Assembly (NCBI GenBank): GCA_903885605.1
Contig: CAISJD010000110.1
Coordinates: 1 to 57,529, forward strand
Reading direction: 5' to 3'
DNA length: 57,529 bases
Source: an uncultured Chthonomonas sp.
GTDB taxonomy: Bacteria > Armatimonadota > Chthonomonadetes > Chthonomonadales > CAJBBX01
Part shown: piece after piece, positions 1 through 6,497 of the stretch
Layout of the letters: each line of letters begins with the position of its first letter
How positions within the stretch are numbered: the stretch's first letter is position 1
Made by a program: the position numbers and the translations under genes
The notes under the pieces: model-generated
Told to the model about the DNA's origin: nothing
What the model saw: only the letters and a program-made list of their open reading frames with translations
Databases searched by the model: none

Positions 1-805
1 CCATCCGATACACTTGCCGAGAAGGACCAGGAGCCAGTCTATTCGTTGGGTAGACCGGGCAGGCATCCATCCGATACACTGTCGATGTGCGTCGGTGGCT
101 CGGGGATGTGGTTGGGTAGACCGGGCAGGCATCCATCCGATACACTTGGGCGCCATCGCTGGACTGACTATGAGGTGTTGGGTAGACCGGGCAGGCATCC
201 ATCCGATACACTCTGTGAACAGCGCGGCGTGCCTATCGTCTGGTTGGGTAGACCGGGCAGGCATCCATCCGATACACTTCTCATCCAACAGCGCGGCGTT
301 CGGCTTCAGTTGGGTAGACCGGGCAGGCATCCATCCGATACACTGCGTGTGCTCAGCGGCATGGCGTGGGTGACGTTGGGTAGACCGGGCAGGCATCCAT
401 CCGATACACTCCTCTCCGCGTGCGAATGCGTTTAGCTTGGGTTGGGTAGACCGGGCAGGCATCCATCCGATACACTGTTCGTTCATGTCGCCCCTCCCCC
501 TGCGTGGTTGGGTAGACCGGGCAGGCATCCATCCGATACACTCTGCCTTCGTAGCATTGTCCAGCTGGCCGGTTGGGTAGACCGGGCAGGCATCCATCCG
601 ATACACTGGAGGTGCAGAGTGAACGACGAACCTGGCTGTTGGGTAGACCGGGCAGGCATCCATCCGATACACTGCCCATGGGCAGGGCTCCTCGCCCCGT
701 CCGGTTGGGTAGACCGGGCAGGCATCCATCCGATACACTATAGGCAATCGCACAGCCGACGGTCAGGCGGTTGGGTAGACCGGGCAGGCATCCATCCGAT
801 ACACT
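1..805 (+). CRISPR. Type II-C CRISPR array, truncated at left edge
   Basis: Twelve identical 36-nt repeats start at 45, 111, 177, 243, 309, 375, 441, 507, 572, 638, 704 and 770. The last 14 nt of a further repeat lie at 1-14. The 12 spacers are 30 nt each, except 29 nt at 543-571. Repeats begin GTTGGGTAG and end GATACACT, and I saw no degenerate copy. The crRNA strand is plus, because the tracrRNA anti-repeat (5241-5261) is the reverse complement of the repeat's 3' part and CCAAC further on can pair with the repeat's 5' GTTGG. The array therefore reads toward cas2, convergent with the cas operon. The upstream end is outside the window. Confidence 0.98.
51..80 (+). promoter_or_regulatory. Candidate promoter embedded in each CRISPR repeat (first full copy shown)
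   Basis: Repeat positions 7-12 read TAGACC (4 of 6 to TTGACA) and positions 31-36 read TACACT (4 of 6 to TATAAT), separated by 18 nt. The same TACACT is the -10 of the tracrRNA promoter. If active, each repeat would start transcription about 7 nt into the following spacer, as known for Neisseria meningitidis II-C arrays. This is inference from sequence only. Confidence 0.45.
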
Positions 806-856: not shown

Positions 857-1162
857 TCAGTAGAACTCGAGCTGGTCCGGCTCTTTTTCTGTCTCCTGCA
901 GGTCCTTGCCCAGGAAGATTTCCATGCGGGCGTACTGCATCTCGGTCAGCGCCAGCAGCCGCACCTCTCCCTCCGGCGGCAGCATCGACTTCACCCGCTC
1001 GGTGTGCACCCGCACATTGTCGTCATTGGGGCAGGGCCGACCGTAGACGCTGAACTGCAGCATCATGAACCCGTCGTCGATGAGACCGCGGCGGAACCGG
1101 GCGTAGTTGCGGCGCGATTTCTTGTCCGTCACCGGCAGGTCGAACAACGCTAGCAGCCACAT
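857..1162 (-). CDS. cas2: CRISPR-associated endonuclease Cas2
   Basis: This 101-residue Cas2 is the integrase partner that bridges two Cas1 dimers during spacer acquisition. It starts MWLLALFDLPV, the usual first beta strand with the acidic residue of the ferredoxin-like fold, and continues with the expected RRNYARFRRGL helix and a GRPCPND segment. I chose the ATG at 1162 because GGAGGAG sits about 9 nt upstream; an in-frame ATG at 1198 would overlap cas1 and lacks that signal. It is the last gene of cas9-cas1-cas2, 20 nt after cas1. Its stop lies 51 bp from the array. No csn2 or cas4 is present, which fits subtype II-C. Confidence 0.95.
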   Translation of the reverse strand: MWLLALFDLPVTDKKSRRNYARFRRGLIDDGFMMLQFSVYGRPCPNDDNVRVHTERVKSMLPPEGEVRLLALTEMQYARMEIFLGKDLQETEKEPDQLEFY

Positions 1163-1182
1163 AGCGCGCGCTCCTCCGTAGG

Positions 1183-2073
1183 TCAGGGTTCGGGGCATGG
1201 CAGGGCCTCATCGTCGCCGGCGATGCGTCGGCGCAGGGCGGCGGCATAGTTGGGCAGGGCGGCCGTCAGCGGGTACCGCTTGCCCTCCCATCCCACGCTC
1301 TCGGTGAGCAGGGCCACCATGGCCCGGCGCACCGGTGTGGGCAGCCCCTCGCCCTCGGGCAGATCGGCCCGCAGGCCCAGCGCCAGCCGGTCCACCAGCG
1401 GGCGCAGGGGCTCCATGGCGTCGTCGGCCAGCGCGAAGGCGTCGTACTGGCTCCGGTGGTGTACGCCCAGGGCCGGGTGGAGCCCCGCGCCCACCAGCGC
1501 GCGGGCCACCGCCGCCCGCAGCACGGCGTAACCGTAGTTGAGGAGGGCGTTGAGGCCCGGCGCCTCGTGGTCGCGCTTGAACCCCCTCCCGAAGAGCGCC
1601 GTGAAGTAGAGCCGTGCCGCCTGGGCCTCCACGTTGCCGGCGTCGTCGCTGCGCACGGCGCGCGAGAGCGCCAGCAGCCCCTTGTCCGTCCCCTTCTCGG
1701 CCTTGAGCAGGGCGGCCTGGGCGGCGACTTTGGCACGGATGATGGTCTGCCACACCTGCTTGCGCCGGGGCACACTCGCCTCGATCTGCGAACGCAGCGT
1801 GGCGGCGTGGAGTGTGCTGCCGGCCAGGGGCAGCATGAGCCCGGCGGGCATGTGCCGGGCGTCGGCCACCACCAGGGCCGCCCCCTGCTCGGCCAGGGCG
1901 GCGAGCAGGGGGCTGGTGACCGTGATGGGCGCGTTGCCGAGCAGGACGATGCCGATGTCCTCTACCGGGATGGTGACCGTGGGCGCGCCCTCGCGCTCCA
2001 GCACCAGTTGCAGGTCGCGGTAGCTCAAGCGGGCGGCCGAGGCGATGTCGACCACGCGGCCCAGGTCAGGCAT
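1183..2073 (-). CDS. cas1: CRISPR-associated integrase Cas1
   Basis: This 296-residue metal-dependent integrase inserts new spacers together with Cas2. The probable active-site residues are present: E149 in NVEAQAARLYF, H205 in GVHHRSQYD and the acidic pair D217/D218 in FALADDAMEP. The N-terminal beta-rich part contains the usual VLLGNAPITVTSPLLAAL segment. Its start overlaps the end of cas9 by 8 bp, which suggests translational coupling. The length is normal for type II Cas1. No reverse transcriptase or other fusion is visible. Confidence 0.96.
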   Translation of the reverse strand: MPDLGRVVDIASAARLSYRDLQLVLEREGAPTVTIPVEDIGIVLLGNAPITVTSPLLAALAEQGAALVVADARHMPAGLMLPLAGSTLHAATLRSQIEASVPRRKQVWQTIIRAKVAAQAALLKAEKGTDKGLLALSRAVRSDDAGNVEAQAARLYFTALFGRGFKRDHEAPGLNALLNYGYAVLRAAVARALVGAGLHPALGVHHRSQYDAFALADDAMEPLRPLVDRLALGLRADLPEGEGLPTPVRRAMVALLTESVGWEGKRYPLTAALPNYAAALRRRIAGDDEALPCPEP

Positions 2074-5000
2074 CCAACGGCTCGGAGGCGATCTCGTCGC
2101 CCAGGGGTCCCAGGCAGACGCGGCGGCGGATGCTGGGCAGCTTAGGGCGGCCCTGGATGCGAAGATCCTGCGGCCTCGACGCGACGGCGCGGATTGGATG
2201 GCGAAGGACCAGCTCGATGGCGCCGCATGTCGAGACCGAGAACGTAGCCACCCTGTAGAGCCCCGGCTTGTCCCCGGTCCACTCCACGATGTCGCTCTTG
2301 CAGAGCGAGAGGACGAAGTCCCAGCCTTCGCGGGCGGGCTGCACCACGGGCTCGCCGTGGGCGGCGCGGCGGGCGGCTTCCATCATGGAGGTCACGGTCA
2401 TGTCGCGCTCCACCTTGCCGTCGGGGCGGGTGCGCTGCCAGATGCAGGCGTGGTGGTTGCTGGCCAGGTCGTAGGCCTTCAGGCCCCGGCCGTCGGGGCC
2501 CAGCACCACCATCCGGCCCTCCACCACCACGGTGGCGGGCAGCTTTCCCGGCGAGGCTCCGGCGGCGGCCAGCGCTGCCGCCACCTTCTCCGGCGCCGGC
2601 GGCGGGTAGGCCGTCTCCTTGTGCAGGGCGCCCTGCACGCTCCGGTTGGTGGCGTGGACCACCGGGGCCCGCTCGATGGCCCGCTCCAGGTCGCCCATGA
2701 GCGTGGGCCAGAGGAGCGGCGGCTCCAGGCGGTCGCGGGGGATGCCCTCCTCCCGGGCCTTGAGCCAGGCGGTCATGCGCTGCAGCGTGCGGATGTCGGT
2801 GAGGGCCGCAAGGATGGCGTCCAGGGCGTGGTGCCGGTGGTCGTGCCGGGGCTTCTCGTTCTTCTTCACCGGGGCCTCGCGCCAGCGGACCAGCTTCTCC
2901 TTCTCCTCGTCATCGATGGGCACGCAGTGGCCGAGCTCCCAGAGCGAGCGGAGCTGCGCGGTGATCTGCCCCCGCGAGACCTCCACGGGCACGCCCAGCT
3001 TCGCCACCTCCTTCTTGATCGCCGACGAGAGGTAGCGCGTGTCGGACAGGGCGCGGTTGGTGAAGCCCTCGGCGTCGTAGGCCTCGGCCAGGAGGCGGCT
3101 CCGCTTGCCCGGCGACATCCCGCGCAATGACCGGACGTAGCGGCACATGTGGTCCCACCGCTCGCCCCTGCCGATCCACTCGAACGGGGTGGAGTTGCCC
3201 TTCTGCAGGTTGAGGCCCCGCGGGCAGATGGTCTTGTTGACCCACGAGTCGTCCCAGCAGCGGCTGCGCGGCACGATGTGCTCCACGTCGTAGTCGTTGA
3301 GCAGCTCCTGGATACCCACCATGCGGTCGGGCTCGTAGGGGCACCTCATGCCGGCCTCCTCCCAGAGCAGCACCTTCTCCACGGCCCGCGAGAGGACGAT
3401 GGAGGCGCCGCGCGGCGTGGCTTCGCCCTGGGCGATGTCGGGCTTGTTCTCCAGCACCTTCTTCTCGGCCTGCTTGCGGTCTCGGGCGCGTTTGTCCTGG
3501 TCGCGCCACATCTGCTCGCGCTGCTTGTTCGTCCGCGAGACGTCGCGGGGGAGCTCGATGCGGATGGTGGTGGGCTTGCCGTACCTGTCGATGACCGCGT
3601 TGATGACCCGGAAGGCCATCTTCACGGAGCGCTGCACCACGGGGTTGCGCAGGTCCGGCGCGGCGTCCAGGCGATCCAGCGGCTTGTCGACCACGGCCAC
3701 GGTGCTGGTGTTGGCCTCGCGGTACCCGGCCGCCTCGCAGGCCTCGCTGTAGACCAGGCCCTGCCGCAAGTGGGGCTCCAGGTCGGCCCAGACGCGGCGG
3801 CAGTGGTTGGTGTATCCCTCGGAGAGGGGCGCCGAGGCGGCAGCTCGCACCTGGTCGGGCGTGAACCCGAAGCGCCGGCGCAGGCCCCGTGCCACGTCGG
3901 CCAGGCTGTGCGCGTGGAGGAGGAGGGCCACCATCTCCTCCTTGCCCTCGGGCTCCAGGTCCGACCAGCCGTCGCCCAGCGAGGCGCGGAGGGCGGAGGC
4001 GGTGCGGTTGCCCAGGATATCGCCGCGCGTGCGCTTGCCGGCCTTGCGGCGCTCGGGCTCGTCGCTGAACCGGGCGCCGAGGGGCATGAAGGCCACCTGG
4101 CGCGCCTCCTCCCAGGTGAGGCTGTCGCGGTGCTCCAGCGCGTCGGCCAGCGCGGTCACCTCGTCGCCCGTCAGGCGGCGCGGGCCGGCGCCCTTCTGGT
4201 CCACCACCGTCAGGTTCACGAGGGTCTGGAGCACGCTGGTGCGCTGGGCAAGCAGTTCGGCCCGGGCAAGCCGCTTGCGGGCGGGCAGGAACTCGCAGCC
4301 GCCCACGAGCCCCCGCTTGGAGGCCAGGGGCCGCTGGAAGAAGATGGCCGTGCGGACCTCCTCGCGGAGCCCGTCGGTGAGCGCGGCCGGGTGGAACCGG
4401 GCCTGGGCGGCCCAGAGCTTCTCGAACTCCTCCTCCACCAGGAAGCGGTCGGCGCGCCAGCCCAGCAGGTCCTGCTTCTGCTGCCTCGGCTCGCTCCGTT
4501 TGCCCGACGCGCGGACGCCGCCGGGAAAGGCGCCGGGATCGGCCAGGCGCAGGGCGCAGAACTCGCCGATGGTGCGGGCGGCCCCGGCCTCGATCTGTTC
4601 GCGCACCTCCTTCAGGCGGCCCAGGAGCGCCGAGGTCTCCTTGTCGGCGGCCTTGCCCTCCTCGCCGGGCTCCTCGGCCTCGAGGTCGGCGGCGGCGCGC
4701 TGGAGCGTGGGGAGCTGCTTCTCCAGGTGCAGGTGCATCAGGTCGCGGGTGCTGATGTAGCCCCGGCGTCGGCAGATGTGGTGCAGGCAGCGGCCCAGCT
4801 CGTGGAGCGTCAGCTCCTCGTCAAGCCCCCTCTGCCGGAGCATGAAGGGGTGGAAGGGCCGCTTGCCGGGCTCGCCGCCGGCGGGCCGGTCGCGGCTCAG
4901 CAGCCGGTCGCGCTCCTCCTTCTCGGCGGGCAGCAGGCCGTGCGCCACGAGCAGCTTGAGCAGGGCGGCCATGCGCTGCCGCTTGCGCCGGACCTGGATG

Positions 5001-5191
5001 CGCATGCGGCGCTTCTGCCCGCGCTTCTGCCGGTTCGACCTAAAGAGCCCTGTCCCCTGCTCCAGCTCGCCCGGTTCGGGGTAGACGTACGACCCGGCCT
5101 CCACGGTGGGCGTGTCGTCCGGCCCCTCCCGCTGGACCACCGCCCATCCCACGCTGTTCACACCAAGATCCAACCCCAGGATCGTCTCCAC
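2066..5191 (-). CDS. cas9: Cas9 RNA-guided endonuclease, compact type II-C
   Basis: This is a 1041-residue effector nuclease guided by crRNA:tracrRNA. RuvC-I is at the N terminus (D8 in GLDLGVNSVGW), followed by an arginine-rich bridge helix near residues 53-75. RuvC-II has E546 (IRIELPRD). The HNH domain has H638 (DVEHIVPRS) and N661, equivalent to the SpCas9 H840/N863 pair by motif. RuvC-III has H787, H788 and D791 (HHALDA). All catalytic positions look intact. The last ~230 residues are the wedge/PAM-interacting region. I prefer a GTG start at 5191: its reverse-strand leader has GAGGGAGG about 8 nt upstream, whereas ATGs at 5212 and 5233 lack a ribosome site and overlap the tracrRNA promoter. 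The small size and the cas9-cas1-cas2 set without csn2 indicate II-C. Confidence 0.97.
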   Translation of the reverse strand: METILGLDLGVNSVGWAVVQREGPDDTPTVEAGSYVYPEPGELEQGTGLFRSNRQKRGQKRRMRIQVRRKRQRMAALLKLLVAHGLLPAEKEERDRLLSRDRPAGGEPGKRPFHPFMLRQRGLDEELTLHELGRCLHHICRRRGYISTRDLMHLHLEKQLPTLQRAAADLEAEEPGEEGKAADKETSALLGRLKEVREQIEAGAARTIGEFCALRLADPGAFPGGVRASGKRSEPRQQKQDLLGWRADRFLVEEEFEKLWAAQARFHPAALTDGLREEVRTAIFFQRPLASKRGLVGGCEFLPARKRLARAELLAQRTSVLQTLVNLTVVDQKGAGPRRLTGDEVTALADALEHRDSLTWEEARQVAFMPLGARFSDEPERRKAGKRTRGDILGNRTASALRASLGDGWSDLEPEGKEEMVALLLHAHSLADVARGLRRRFGFTPDQVRAAASAPLSEGYTNHCRRVWADLEPHLRQGLVYSEACEAAGYREANTSTVAVVDKPLDRLDAAPDLRNPVVQRSVKMAFRVINAVIDRYGKPTTIRIELPRDVSRTNKQREQMWRDQDKRARDRKQAEKKVLENKPDIAQGEATPRGASIVLSRAVEKVLLWEEAGMRCPYEPDRMVGIQELLNDYDVEHIVPRSRCWDDSWVNKTICPRGLNLQKGNSTPFEWIGRGERWDHMCRYVRSLRGMSPGKRSRLLAEAYDAEGFTNRALSDTRYLSSAIKKEVAKLGVPVEVSRGQITAQLRSLWELGHCVPIDDEEKEKLVRWREAPVKKNEKPRHDHRHHALDAILAALTDIRTLQRMTAWLKAREEGIPRDRLEPPLLWPTLMGDLERAIERAPVVHATNRSVQGALHKETAYPPPAPEKVAAALAAAGASPGKLPATVVVEGRMVVLGPDGRGLKAYDLASNHHACIWQRTRPDGKVERDMTVTSMMEAARRAAHGEPVVQPAREGWDFVLSLCKSDIVEWTGDKPGLYRVATFSVSTCGAIELVLRHPIRAVASRPQDLRIQGRPKLPSIRRRVCLGPLGDEIASEPLDA

Positions 5192-5205
5192 GGCTAACCT
5201 CCCTC

Positions 5206-5234
5206 TTGACATTGGCAAGAACCGACGGTACACT
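5206..5234 (+). promoter_or_regulatory. tracrRNA promoter
   Basis: A perfect -35 TTGACA (5206-5211) is followed by 17 nt and -10 TACACT (5229-5234). Initiation is predicted near 5241, exactly where the anti-repeat begins. This is the best sigma70-type promoter I can see in the window. Confidence 0.85.
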
Positions 5235-5238
5235 CATC

Positions 5239-5244
5239 ATTGTA
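5239..5244 (-). promoter_or_regulatory. Candidate cas9 operon -10 box within the anti-repeat
   Basis: On the minus strand the anti-repeat reads like the array repeat but ends TACAAT instead of TACACT, a 5-of-6 match to TATAAT. Initiation would fall near 5232 and give a ~41-nt leader before the cas9 GTG. No good -35 is visible. The site overlaps the divergent tracrRNA start. This is inference. Confidence 0.4.
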
Positions 5245-5366
5245 TCGGATGGATGCCTGCCTGAGTCCTCCAACAAGGATCTTAGATCCGCAGGCTGGGC
5301 CTCACCGCCCACCCGTCAGGTCCTCACCGGACCGAAGCGAAAGAGCCCCCGCAAGGGGGCTTTTTC
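5241..5366 (+). ncRNA. tracrRNA
   Basis: About 125 nt. The anti-repeat at 5241-5261 is a perfect complement of 21 nt of the repeat's 3' part. A mismatched bulge follows, then CCAAC (5270-5274) pairs with the repeat's 5' GTTGG to form the lower stem. A nexus-like hairpin follows at once (GGATC-TTA-GATCC, 5277-5289), then TGGGC/GCCCA (5296-5311), GGTCC/GGACC (5319-5333) and the terminator hairpin (5344-5361). It is transcribed away from cas9 and supplies the scaffold for crRNA loading. Confidence 0.93.
5344..5366 (+). terminator. Rho-independent terminator of tracrRNA
   Basis: AGCCCCC-GCAA-GGGGGCT is a 7-bp GC stem with a tetraloop, followed by TTTTTC. The stem is perfect and sits at the expected 3' end of the tracrRNA. 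Confidence 0.95.
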
Positions 5367-5453
5367 GTTAGTGGGCCACCCACGGCGTTACTATCGCGGC
5401 GTCGCCCGAACCGGAAAGCCCGAACTCACGCCCGCCTCCCTTCGCCCCGGCCG

Positions 5454-5483
5454 TTGGCTTCATGGCCCCCTGCGGCGTACACT
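5454..5483 (+). promoter_or_regulatory. Promoter of sugar transport operon, possibly giving a leaderless mRNA
   Basis: TTGGCT (5454-5459), 18 nt, then TACACT (5478-5483). Initiation would fall near 5490, at or just before the ATG at 5493, so the permease may be translated from a leaderless or nearly leaderless message. The -10 hexamer equals that of the tracrRNA promoter and the CRISPR repeats. Confidence 0.6.
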
Positions 5484-5492
5484 ATGGGAGCT

Positions 5493-6497
5493 ATGCAGCG
5501 GACCCCTGAACAGGCATCCATCGTTCGATGTACGCCGGCGCGGCACGCGCTCTGGCGCGAGGCCGGCGTCTACGCCGTGCTGGCGGGGCTCTACGTGGCC
5601 CTCGCCGTCTGGGAGCCCTCGTTCCGTGGGTGGGTTAACTTCCGCAACGTCCTCACGCAGATCTCCATGGTCGCGATCGTGGCCGTGGGCATGACCGCCG
5701 TCATCATCTCCGGCGGCATCGACCTCTCGGTGGGCTCCGTGGCGGCGCTGGCGGCCTGCGTGCCCGCCGTGCTCATGTCGCACCACGGCTGGGGCGGAGG
5801 CGCGGGCGTGGCGCTGACGCTGGCGCTGGGCGCGGCCCTGGGGCTCCTCAACGGCGCGGCCATCACCTTCGTCGGCCTGCCGCCCTTCATCGCCACGCTG
5901 GCGCTCATGGTCATGGCCCGAGGGCTGGCCTTCGTGGTGAGCGGCGGCGGGGCCATCTACAACCTGCCGGCGGCCTACCTCTGGCCGGGCAGCGGCAACG
6001 TGGCCGAGGGCGTGCCGCTCATCGTCAAGCTCCCCGCCATGGTGGCTCTCATGGCCCTACTCTACGCCGCGGGACACCTGGTGATGCAGCGGACGCGGCT
6101 GGGGCGCTACCTCTACAGCGTCGGCGCCAACGAGGAGGCCTCGCGCCTCTCCGGCGTGCCCACGGTGCGGGTGAAGCTCTTCGGCTACGGGCTCTGCGGC
6201 TTCCTCGCGGGGCTGGCGGGCATGCTCTACACCGGCTACGTGGGGGCCGCCGAGCCGACCATCGGCGACGGGCTGGAGCTGGACGCCATCGCCGCGGTGG
6301 TCATCGGCGGCACGAGCCTGAGCGGAGGGCAGGGCAACCTGCCGGGCACGCTGGCCGGGGCGCTGCTCATCGGCCTGGTGCGGAACGGGCTGAACCTGAT
6401 GCAGGTGAACTCCAACTACCAGCGCGTGGCCATCGGCGGCATCATCTTCGCCGCGGTCACCATCGACATGTTCCAGAAGAGAAGGAGGCGGGTCTGA
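5493..6497 (+). CDS. Sugar ABC transporter permease (RbsC/XylH-type)
   Basis: This 334-residue inner-membrane protein of the BPD_transp_2 family forms the channel of a ribose/xylose-type ABC importer. Typical motifs are GGIDLSVGSVAAL, the EAA-like loop around GLPPFIATLALMVMARG, the SVGANEEASRLSGV loop that contacts the ATPase, and AIAAVVIGGTSLSGGQG near the end. About nine hydrophobic segments are visible. An ATG at 5493 is favoured by the promoter position; an ATG at 5484 touches the -10 box and a TTG at 5454 is part of the -35. The binding protein follows 1 nt after the stop. No ATPase gene accompanies it here, although rbsA-type ATPases normally sit beside such permeases. Confidence 0.9.
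   Translation: MQRTPEQASIVRCTPARHALWREAGVYAVLAGLYVALAVWEPSFRGWVNFRNVLTQISMVAIVAVGMTAVIISGGIDLSVGSVAALAACVPAVLMSHHGWGGGAGVALTLALGAALGLLNGAAITFVGLPPFIATLALMVMARGLAFVVSGGGAIYNLPAAYLWPGSGNVAEGVPLIVKLPAMVALMALLYAAGHLVMQRTRLGRYLYSVGANEEASRLSGVPTVRVKLFGYGLCGFLAGLAGMLYTGYVGAAEPTIGDGLELDAIAAVVIGGTSLSGGQGNLPGTLAGALLIGLVRNGLNLMQVNSNYQRVAIGGIIFAAVTIDMFQKRRRRV

Follow-up and report, generated by a model that had tools for sequence, protein, structure and literature searches.

The window analysed here, a stretch of 57,529 nucleotides, is contig C110 of a 5.6-Mb Armatimonadota genome and was found to carry a CRISPR-Cas locus at its left end. The features of this locus are as follows, with positions being those of the window:

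1 to 805, plus strand: CRISPR array with repeat GTTGGGTAGACCGGGCAGGCATCCATCCGATACACT, each repeat ending in the -10-like TACACT; the array extends past the window start
857 to 1198, minus strand: cas2
1183 to 2073, minus strand: cas1
2066 to 5191, minus strand: cas9, with a GTG start and RuvC_III and HNH_4 domains, 1041 aa
5198 to 5203, minus strand: Shine-Dalgarno site GGGAGG of cas9
5206 to 5234, plus strand: tracrRNA promoter TTGACA-N17-TACACT (exact sequence match, conserved across 26 loci)
5239 to 5244, minus strand: TACAAT, candidate -10 in the cas9 direction, at the end of the degenerate repeat and with a weak -35 (retained by genome G002, from the same genus, and no longer present at most other loci)
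5239 to 5274, minus strand: degenerate repeat GTTGGAGGACTCAGGCAGGCATCCATCCGATACAAT, 36 nt, template of the tracrRNA anti-repeat
5242 to 5370, plus strand: predicted tracrRNA, with 5' end GUAUCGGAUGG..., ending at an intrinsic terminator (recognized from the repeat duplex, 3' hairpins, terminator stem and T-run)
5344 to 5368, plus strand: intrinsic terminator of the tracrRNA, consisting of a stem (5344 to 5361) and the T-run GCTTTTTCGTT

Three adjoining minus-strand ORFs were found to match Cas9 domains, Cas1 and Cas2, with no csn2 or cas4 identified and no extra gene lying between these ORFs and the array. The array possesses a 36-nt repeat, of which twelve copies were identified by scan along with a partial one at the window edge, and all twelve are antisense to the cas operon, as judged by their -10-bearing 3' end and by pairing with the anti-repeat. 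A tracrRNA with an anti-repeat is also encoded, as indicated by the 36-nt degenerate repeat, the duplex with the repeat and the terminator. The putative -10 at the 3' end of the repeat, TACACT in the window, has its counterpart among repeats of the phylum, 22 of 23 of which end in TAnnnT. The locus is thus an ordinary type II-C system (cas9-cas1-cas2 with an antisense array). Approximately eight more copies of the window's repeat were observed at the end of another contig of this genome (L009 1-500, G000:C177), adjoining a GGCAAnGGC-rich tandem stretch, and probably represent the opposite end of the interrupted array.

The tracrRNA gene sits on the plus strand between cas9 and a divergent transporter gene, and along it the anti-repeat is followed by hairpins and then by the intrinsic terminator. 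Searches of Rfam, at the gathering cut-off and by E-value over positions 5000-5600, returned no match to a tracrRNA or other family. The promoter assigned to this gene by the preliminary description was confirmed exactly, with TTGACA at 5206-5211, a 17-nt spacer and TACACT at 5229-5234, and is the top sigma-70-like site of the first 15 kb (10/12, with three sites found against 0.8 expected).

Comparison with related loci was based on Cas9 searches over 291 genomes of the phylum, which provided 26 loci with a tracrRNA directly upstream of cas9 and pointing away from it; repeats and anti-repeats were compared in the 19 of these with a known repeat. Anti-repeat ends were anchored by hand and start codons were taken as the most 5' in-frame ATG or GTG past the anti-repeat. 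The motifs, whether they are conserved or lost, and their distance to the start codon were read directly from the sequences, with the loci being related and their counts therefore not independent. Loci L082, L084 and L086 were excluded from the counts, as their anti-repeat is in the other orientation. These represent a second group of type II-C systems in Armatimonadota, in which the tracrRNA lies upstream of cas9 and is co-directional with it, and their repeats end in GCTATAAT. A scan of genome contigs with a Cas9 alignment returned 15 loci, of which 13 lie outside the phylum; those examined were without a divergent anti-repeat beside cas9 like that of the window and were therefore not used.

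The type and place of the tracrRNA promoter were found to be the same in the 26 loci (mean score 11.1, compared to 7.74 +/- 0.24 in shuffles), and it is a strong promoter conserved phylum-wide, as judged from its sequence. Its -10 ends 5-7 nt ahead of the conserved GUAUC start in 21 of 26 loci, placing the predicted 5' end of the tracrRNA at approximately 5242 (5241/5242 from the -10 and GUAUC), in agreement with the start near 5241 proposed previously. A remnant of the repeat as the source of the TACACT of this promoter was considered and dropped, since TATAAT-like hexamers occur there in most other loci. In 17 of 19 loci, the repeat best matched by the anti-repeat is that of its own locus, indicating that the anti-repeat assignment is sound.

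On the minus strand, the hexamer TACAAT (5244-5239) lies inside the anti-repeat and corresponds to the TACACT terminating all twelve array repeats, exactly as described previously. It scores 5/6, and from 5600 to 5186 no other minus-strand -10-like hexamer reaches that score; across the window, hexamers of at least 5/6 occur 0.26 times per kb and strand. As the anti-repeat derives by degeneration from a repeat already bearing a -10-like end, the match is not an independent one. A promoter for cas9 is needed here, since the upstream gene points away, and at the position mirroring the tracrRNA -10 the window has the poor hexamer GAGTGT (2/6), leaving TACAAT as the best candidate for the cas9 -10. 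The start near 5232 formerly suggested for cas9 fits this candidate, from which a start at approximately 5231-5233 is predicted; a start at 5232 would give a leader of approximately 41 nt, a reasonable length, with GGGAGG at 5203-5198 ahead of the GTG start codon at 5191-5189. Where that suggestion is weaker is in the remaining promoter elements, the best -35 being only 3/6 at 19-nt spacing, with no extended -10 at TACAAT. TACAAT may serve as the -10 of cas9 in the genus of the window, at odds that we place slightly short of even.

Bidirectional promoters often make a non-coding partner RNA (PMC10268837), and a short antisense or scaRNA-like transcript, instead of a functional cas9 mRNA, would be a conceivable product of the leftward -10. 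This appears highly improbable, given that transcription from 5232 would lead directly to cas9 with its good Shine-Dalgarno site, with no terminator-like site on the minus strand from 5232 to 5191.

The two -10 elements of the window are adjacent but not shared, with 4 bp between them, and the predicted starts (5241/5242 rightward, approximately 5231-5233 leftward) are approximately 9-11 bp apart. The promoters had been described as face to face, which is correct for their orientation but does not entail a collision. With just 4 bp separating the -10s, each predicted start lies beyond the other, so that the RNAs would diverge without overlap and the polymerases would meet at no head-on point. 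The overlap of the two polymerase footprints, also proposed previously, is supported by the predicted positions, and conflict between the polymerases, if any, would be over binding. The guide-helper RNA and cas9 thus probably start approximately 10 bases apart in opposite directions. As anatomy, a divergent start region common to both genes has good support throughout the phylum, its function being what we infer.

The preliminary description further proposed that the anti-repeat may serve as a dual element, for guide pairing and as the cas9 promoter, tying Cas9 to tracrRNA levels, and named orthologous loci as the place where a conserved minus-strand -10 should be found. Such conservation was not observed. 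Anti-repeats agree with their own repeat in 13-16 of 19 loci per position through repeat position 33, after which agreement was found to be 12/19 at position 34, 3/19 at position 35 and 8/19 at position 36. The last of these is the -7T, among the two most important bases of a -10. Of the 19 anti-repeats, six retain a usable -10, compared to 18 of 19 repeats (Fisher p 1e-4). The six are scattered over the Cas9 tree, and of the three loci nearest by Cas9, two, those of G010 and G001, are without this -10. In the simplest reading, the repeat-end bases fall outside the tracrRNA and drift. In the window, the last three bases of TACAAT are upstream of the predicted tracrRNA 5' end (GUAUC, 5242), making the question of pairing versus promoter moot for those bases.

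What speaks for a dual element is that TACAAT is nearer the consensus than the TACACT of the repeat, that it is identical in G002 and that TACAAT or TAAAAT is also present in L074 and L072. G002 (L017 7741-8520, G002:C124) still has its tracrRNA gene and a strong promoter for it (TTGACA-N17-TATACT), while cas9-cas1-cas2 and the array are gone and the first 27 cas9 codons and one perfect lone repeat are left, making this locus a CRISPR relic. As G002, the one close relative in which TACAAT survives, is without cas9, its hexamer cannot testify to selection for cas9 expression. With these results, a conserved dual element is largely refuted as a general rule and is unlikely to be the explanation.

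The same decay of the anti-repeat end in related loci bears on the possibility that TACAAT is a leftover from the repeat, inactive or weak as a -10, with cas9 started elsewhere in this genus, perhaps from a poor sigma-70 site, by a different sigma factor or from inside the tracrRNA gene. The -10 of the repeat itself, given the TAnnnT ends of the phylum, explains a -10-like end without selection, and the hexamer is without a good -35 or extended -10. Against this, 5600-5186 offers no better minus-strand candidate, and cas9 requires a promoter here with its upstream gene divergent. We regard a leftover as a serious possibility, if not a probable one.

Seven related loci (L062, L063, L064, L070, L071, L077 and L081) were found to have a cas9-direction TATTAT, TATGAT or TATAAT that overlaps the tracrRNA -10, six of these, and thus not independent cases, belonging to one clade sister to the family of the window, with L071 in addition. 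The start codon lies 5-8 nt past this hexamer in all seven, and a Shine-Dalgarno site was found in none of them. Six of the seven spacings are within the tested bracket of 6-8 nt, compared to 0.68 in shuffles (0 of 2000 reaching six), with the seventh, L070 at 5 nt, being just outside. From these spacings, the cas9 mRNA is probably leaderless in the seven loci. A peak at 6-nt spacing was also identified at non-cas9 ORFs of the fetched loci (5 versus 0.76), so leaderless starts seem to be normal in the phylum.

Six of the seven loci have the cas9-direction hexamer exactly mirrored on the tracrRNA -10, with predicted starts approximately 18 bp apart; in L071 it is offset. Mirrored hexamers of at least 5/6 occur in 10 of the 26 loci, compared to 6.4 expected given the tracrRNA -10 (p 0.006), and the window, with GAGTGT, is outside this scheme of its sister clade. 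In several of the seven loci, the tracrRNA -35 position is inside the first cas9 codons. At the G001 locus (L013 210-262, cas9 sense), a perfect TATAAT was observed between the tracrRNA promoter and cas9, and the tracrRNA -10 there lies in a palindrome, AGTATACT, that reads TATACT on either strand. A search of the open-access literature found no paper on a bidirectional tracrRNA/cas9 promoter or on leaderless cas9.

The best explanation, to which we assign a probability of roughly 0.55, is a compact divergent start region serving both tracrRNA and cas9 in this type II-C system. Polymerase on the plus strand would use TTGACA-N17-TACACT and start the tracrRNA (GUAUCGG...) at approximately 5242, while polymerase on the minus strand would start the cas9 mRNA within the same 40 bp. 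In the genus of the window, the cas9 start would most probably be the one predicted from TACAAT, giving the leader with a Shine-Dalgarno site described above. The overlapping footprints would allow one complex at a time, with transcripts running apart; this mutual exclusion, like the use of TACAAT and all start sites given here, is predicted from motif positions. TACAAT itself would be a remnant of the -10 in the repeat, retained or improved in the window and gone from most relatives, and the anti-repeat would not be a dedicated cas9 promoter. In the seven other loci, cas9 would use the -10 overlapping that of the tracrRNA.

Extended to the phylum, this may mean that in type II-C systems of Armatimonadota tracrRNA and cas9 share a bidirectional core promoter onto which polymerase loads either way, the -10 being literally shared and cas9 leaderless in one clade, and a repeat-derived anti-repeat -10 being taken over for cas9 in the genus of the window. 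We put this forward tentatively, as possible rather than probable. If true, competition for one polymerase-binding site, and not a regulator, would determine the balance between Cas9 and tracrRNA, giving CRISPR immunity a simple intrinsic control. Such a case would further show how promoters carried by CRISPR repeats can be passed on, lost or put to new use as a repeat turns into a tracrRNA anti-repeat.

Among known systems, the locus resembles type II-C of the Neisseria/Campylobacter type with repeat-internal promoters in its cas9-cas1-cas2 genes and in an array antisense to the cas genes. A repeat 3' end acting as a -10 is known for type II-C (PMC4607530, PMC7038990), with gnTAnaaT given as the repeat end in the literature (PMC4607530) and GATACACT found in the window. 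In Campylobacter jejuni, the tracrRNA is downstream of the array (PMC4607530), whereas in the window it is just upstream of cas9 and transcribed away from it. The seven related cas9 loci, with 5-8 nt and no Shine-Dalgarno site, are like the leaderless mRNAs of Deinococcus-Thermus and Actinobacteria, which have a -10 beside the start codon (PMC12340547, PMC3160421), from which the cas9 of the window differs by its Shine-Dalgarno site.

Bacterial bidirectional promoters (Warman et al. 2021; PMC12825309, PMC10268837) have divergent starts 7-25 bp apart, with 18 bp being commonest and 10 and 23 bp common (PMC10268837, PMC12825309), and the likeness lies in predicted divergent starts within this range and in overlapping core elements. 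By sequence, six of the seven predicted leaderless loci show the reciprocal coincidence of -7T and -11A that marks the 18-bp class, in line with the spacing and mirrored -10s of the sister clade, but this coincidence is absent from the window (GAGTGT, 2/6), where the -10s are adjacent and the starts, predicted as they are from hexamer positions, are approximately 10 bp apart. The window could only be, at most, a variant of the 10-bp class. For bidirectional promoters of E. coli, basal activity is too low for competition unless one direction is strongly activated (PMC12825309).
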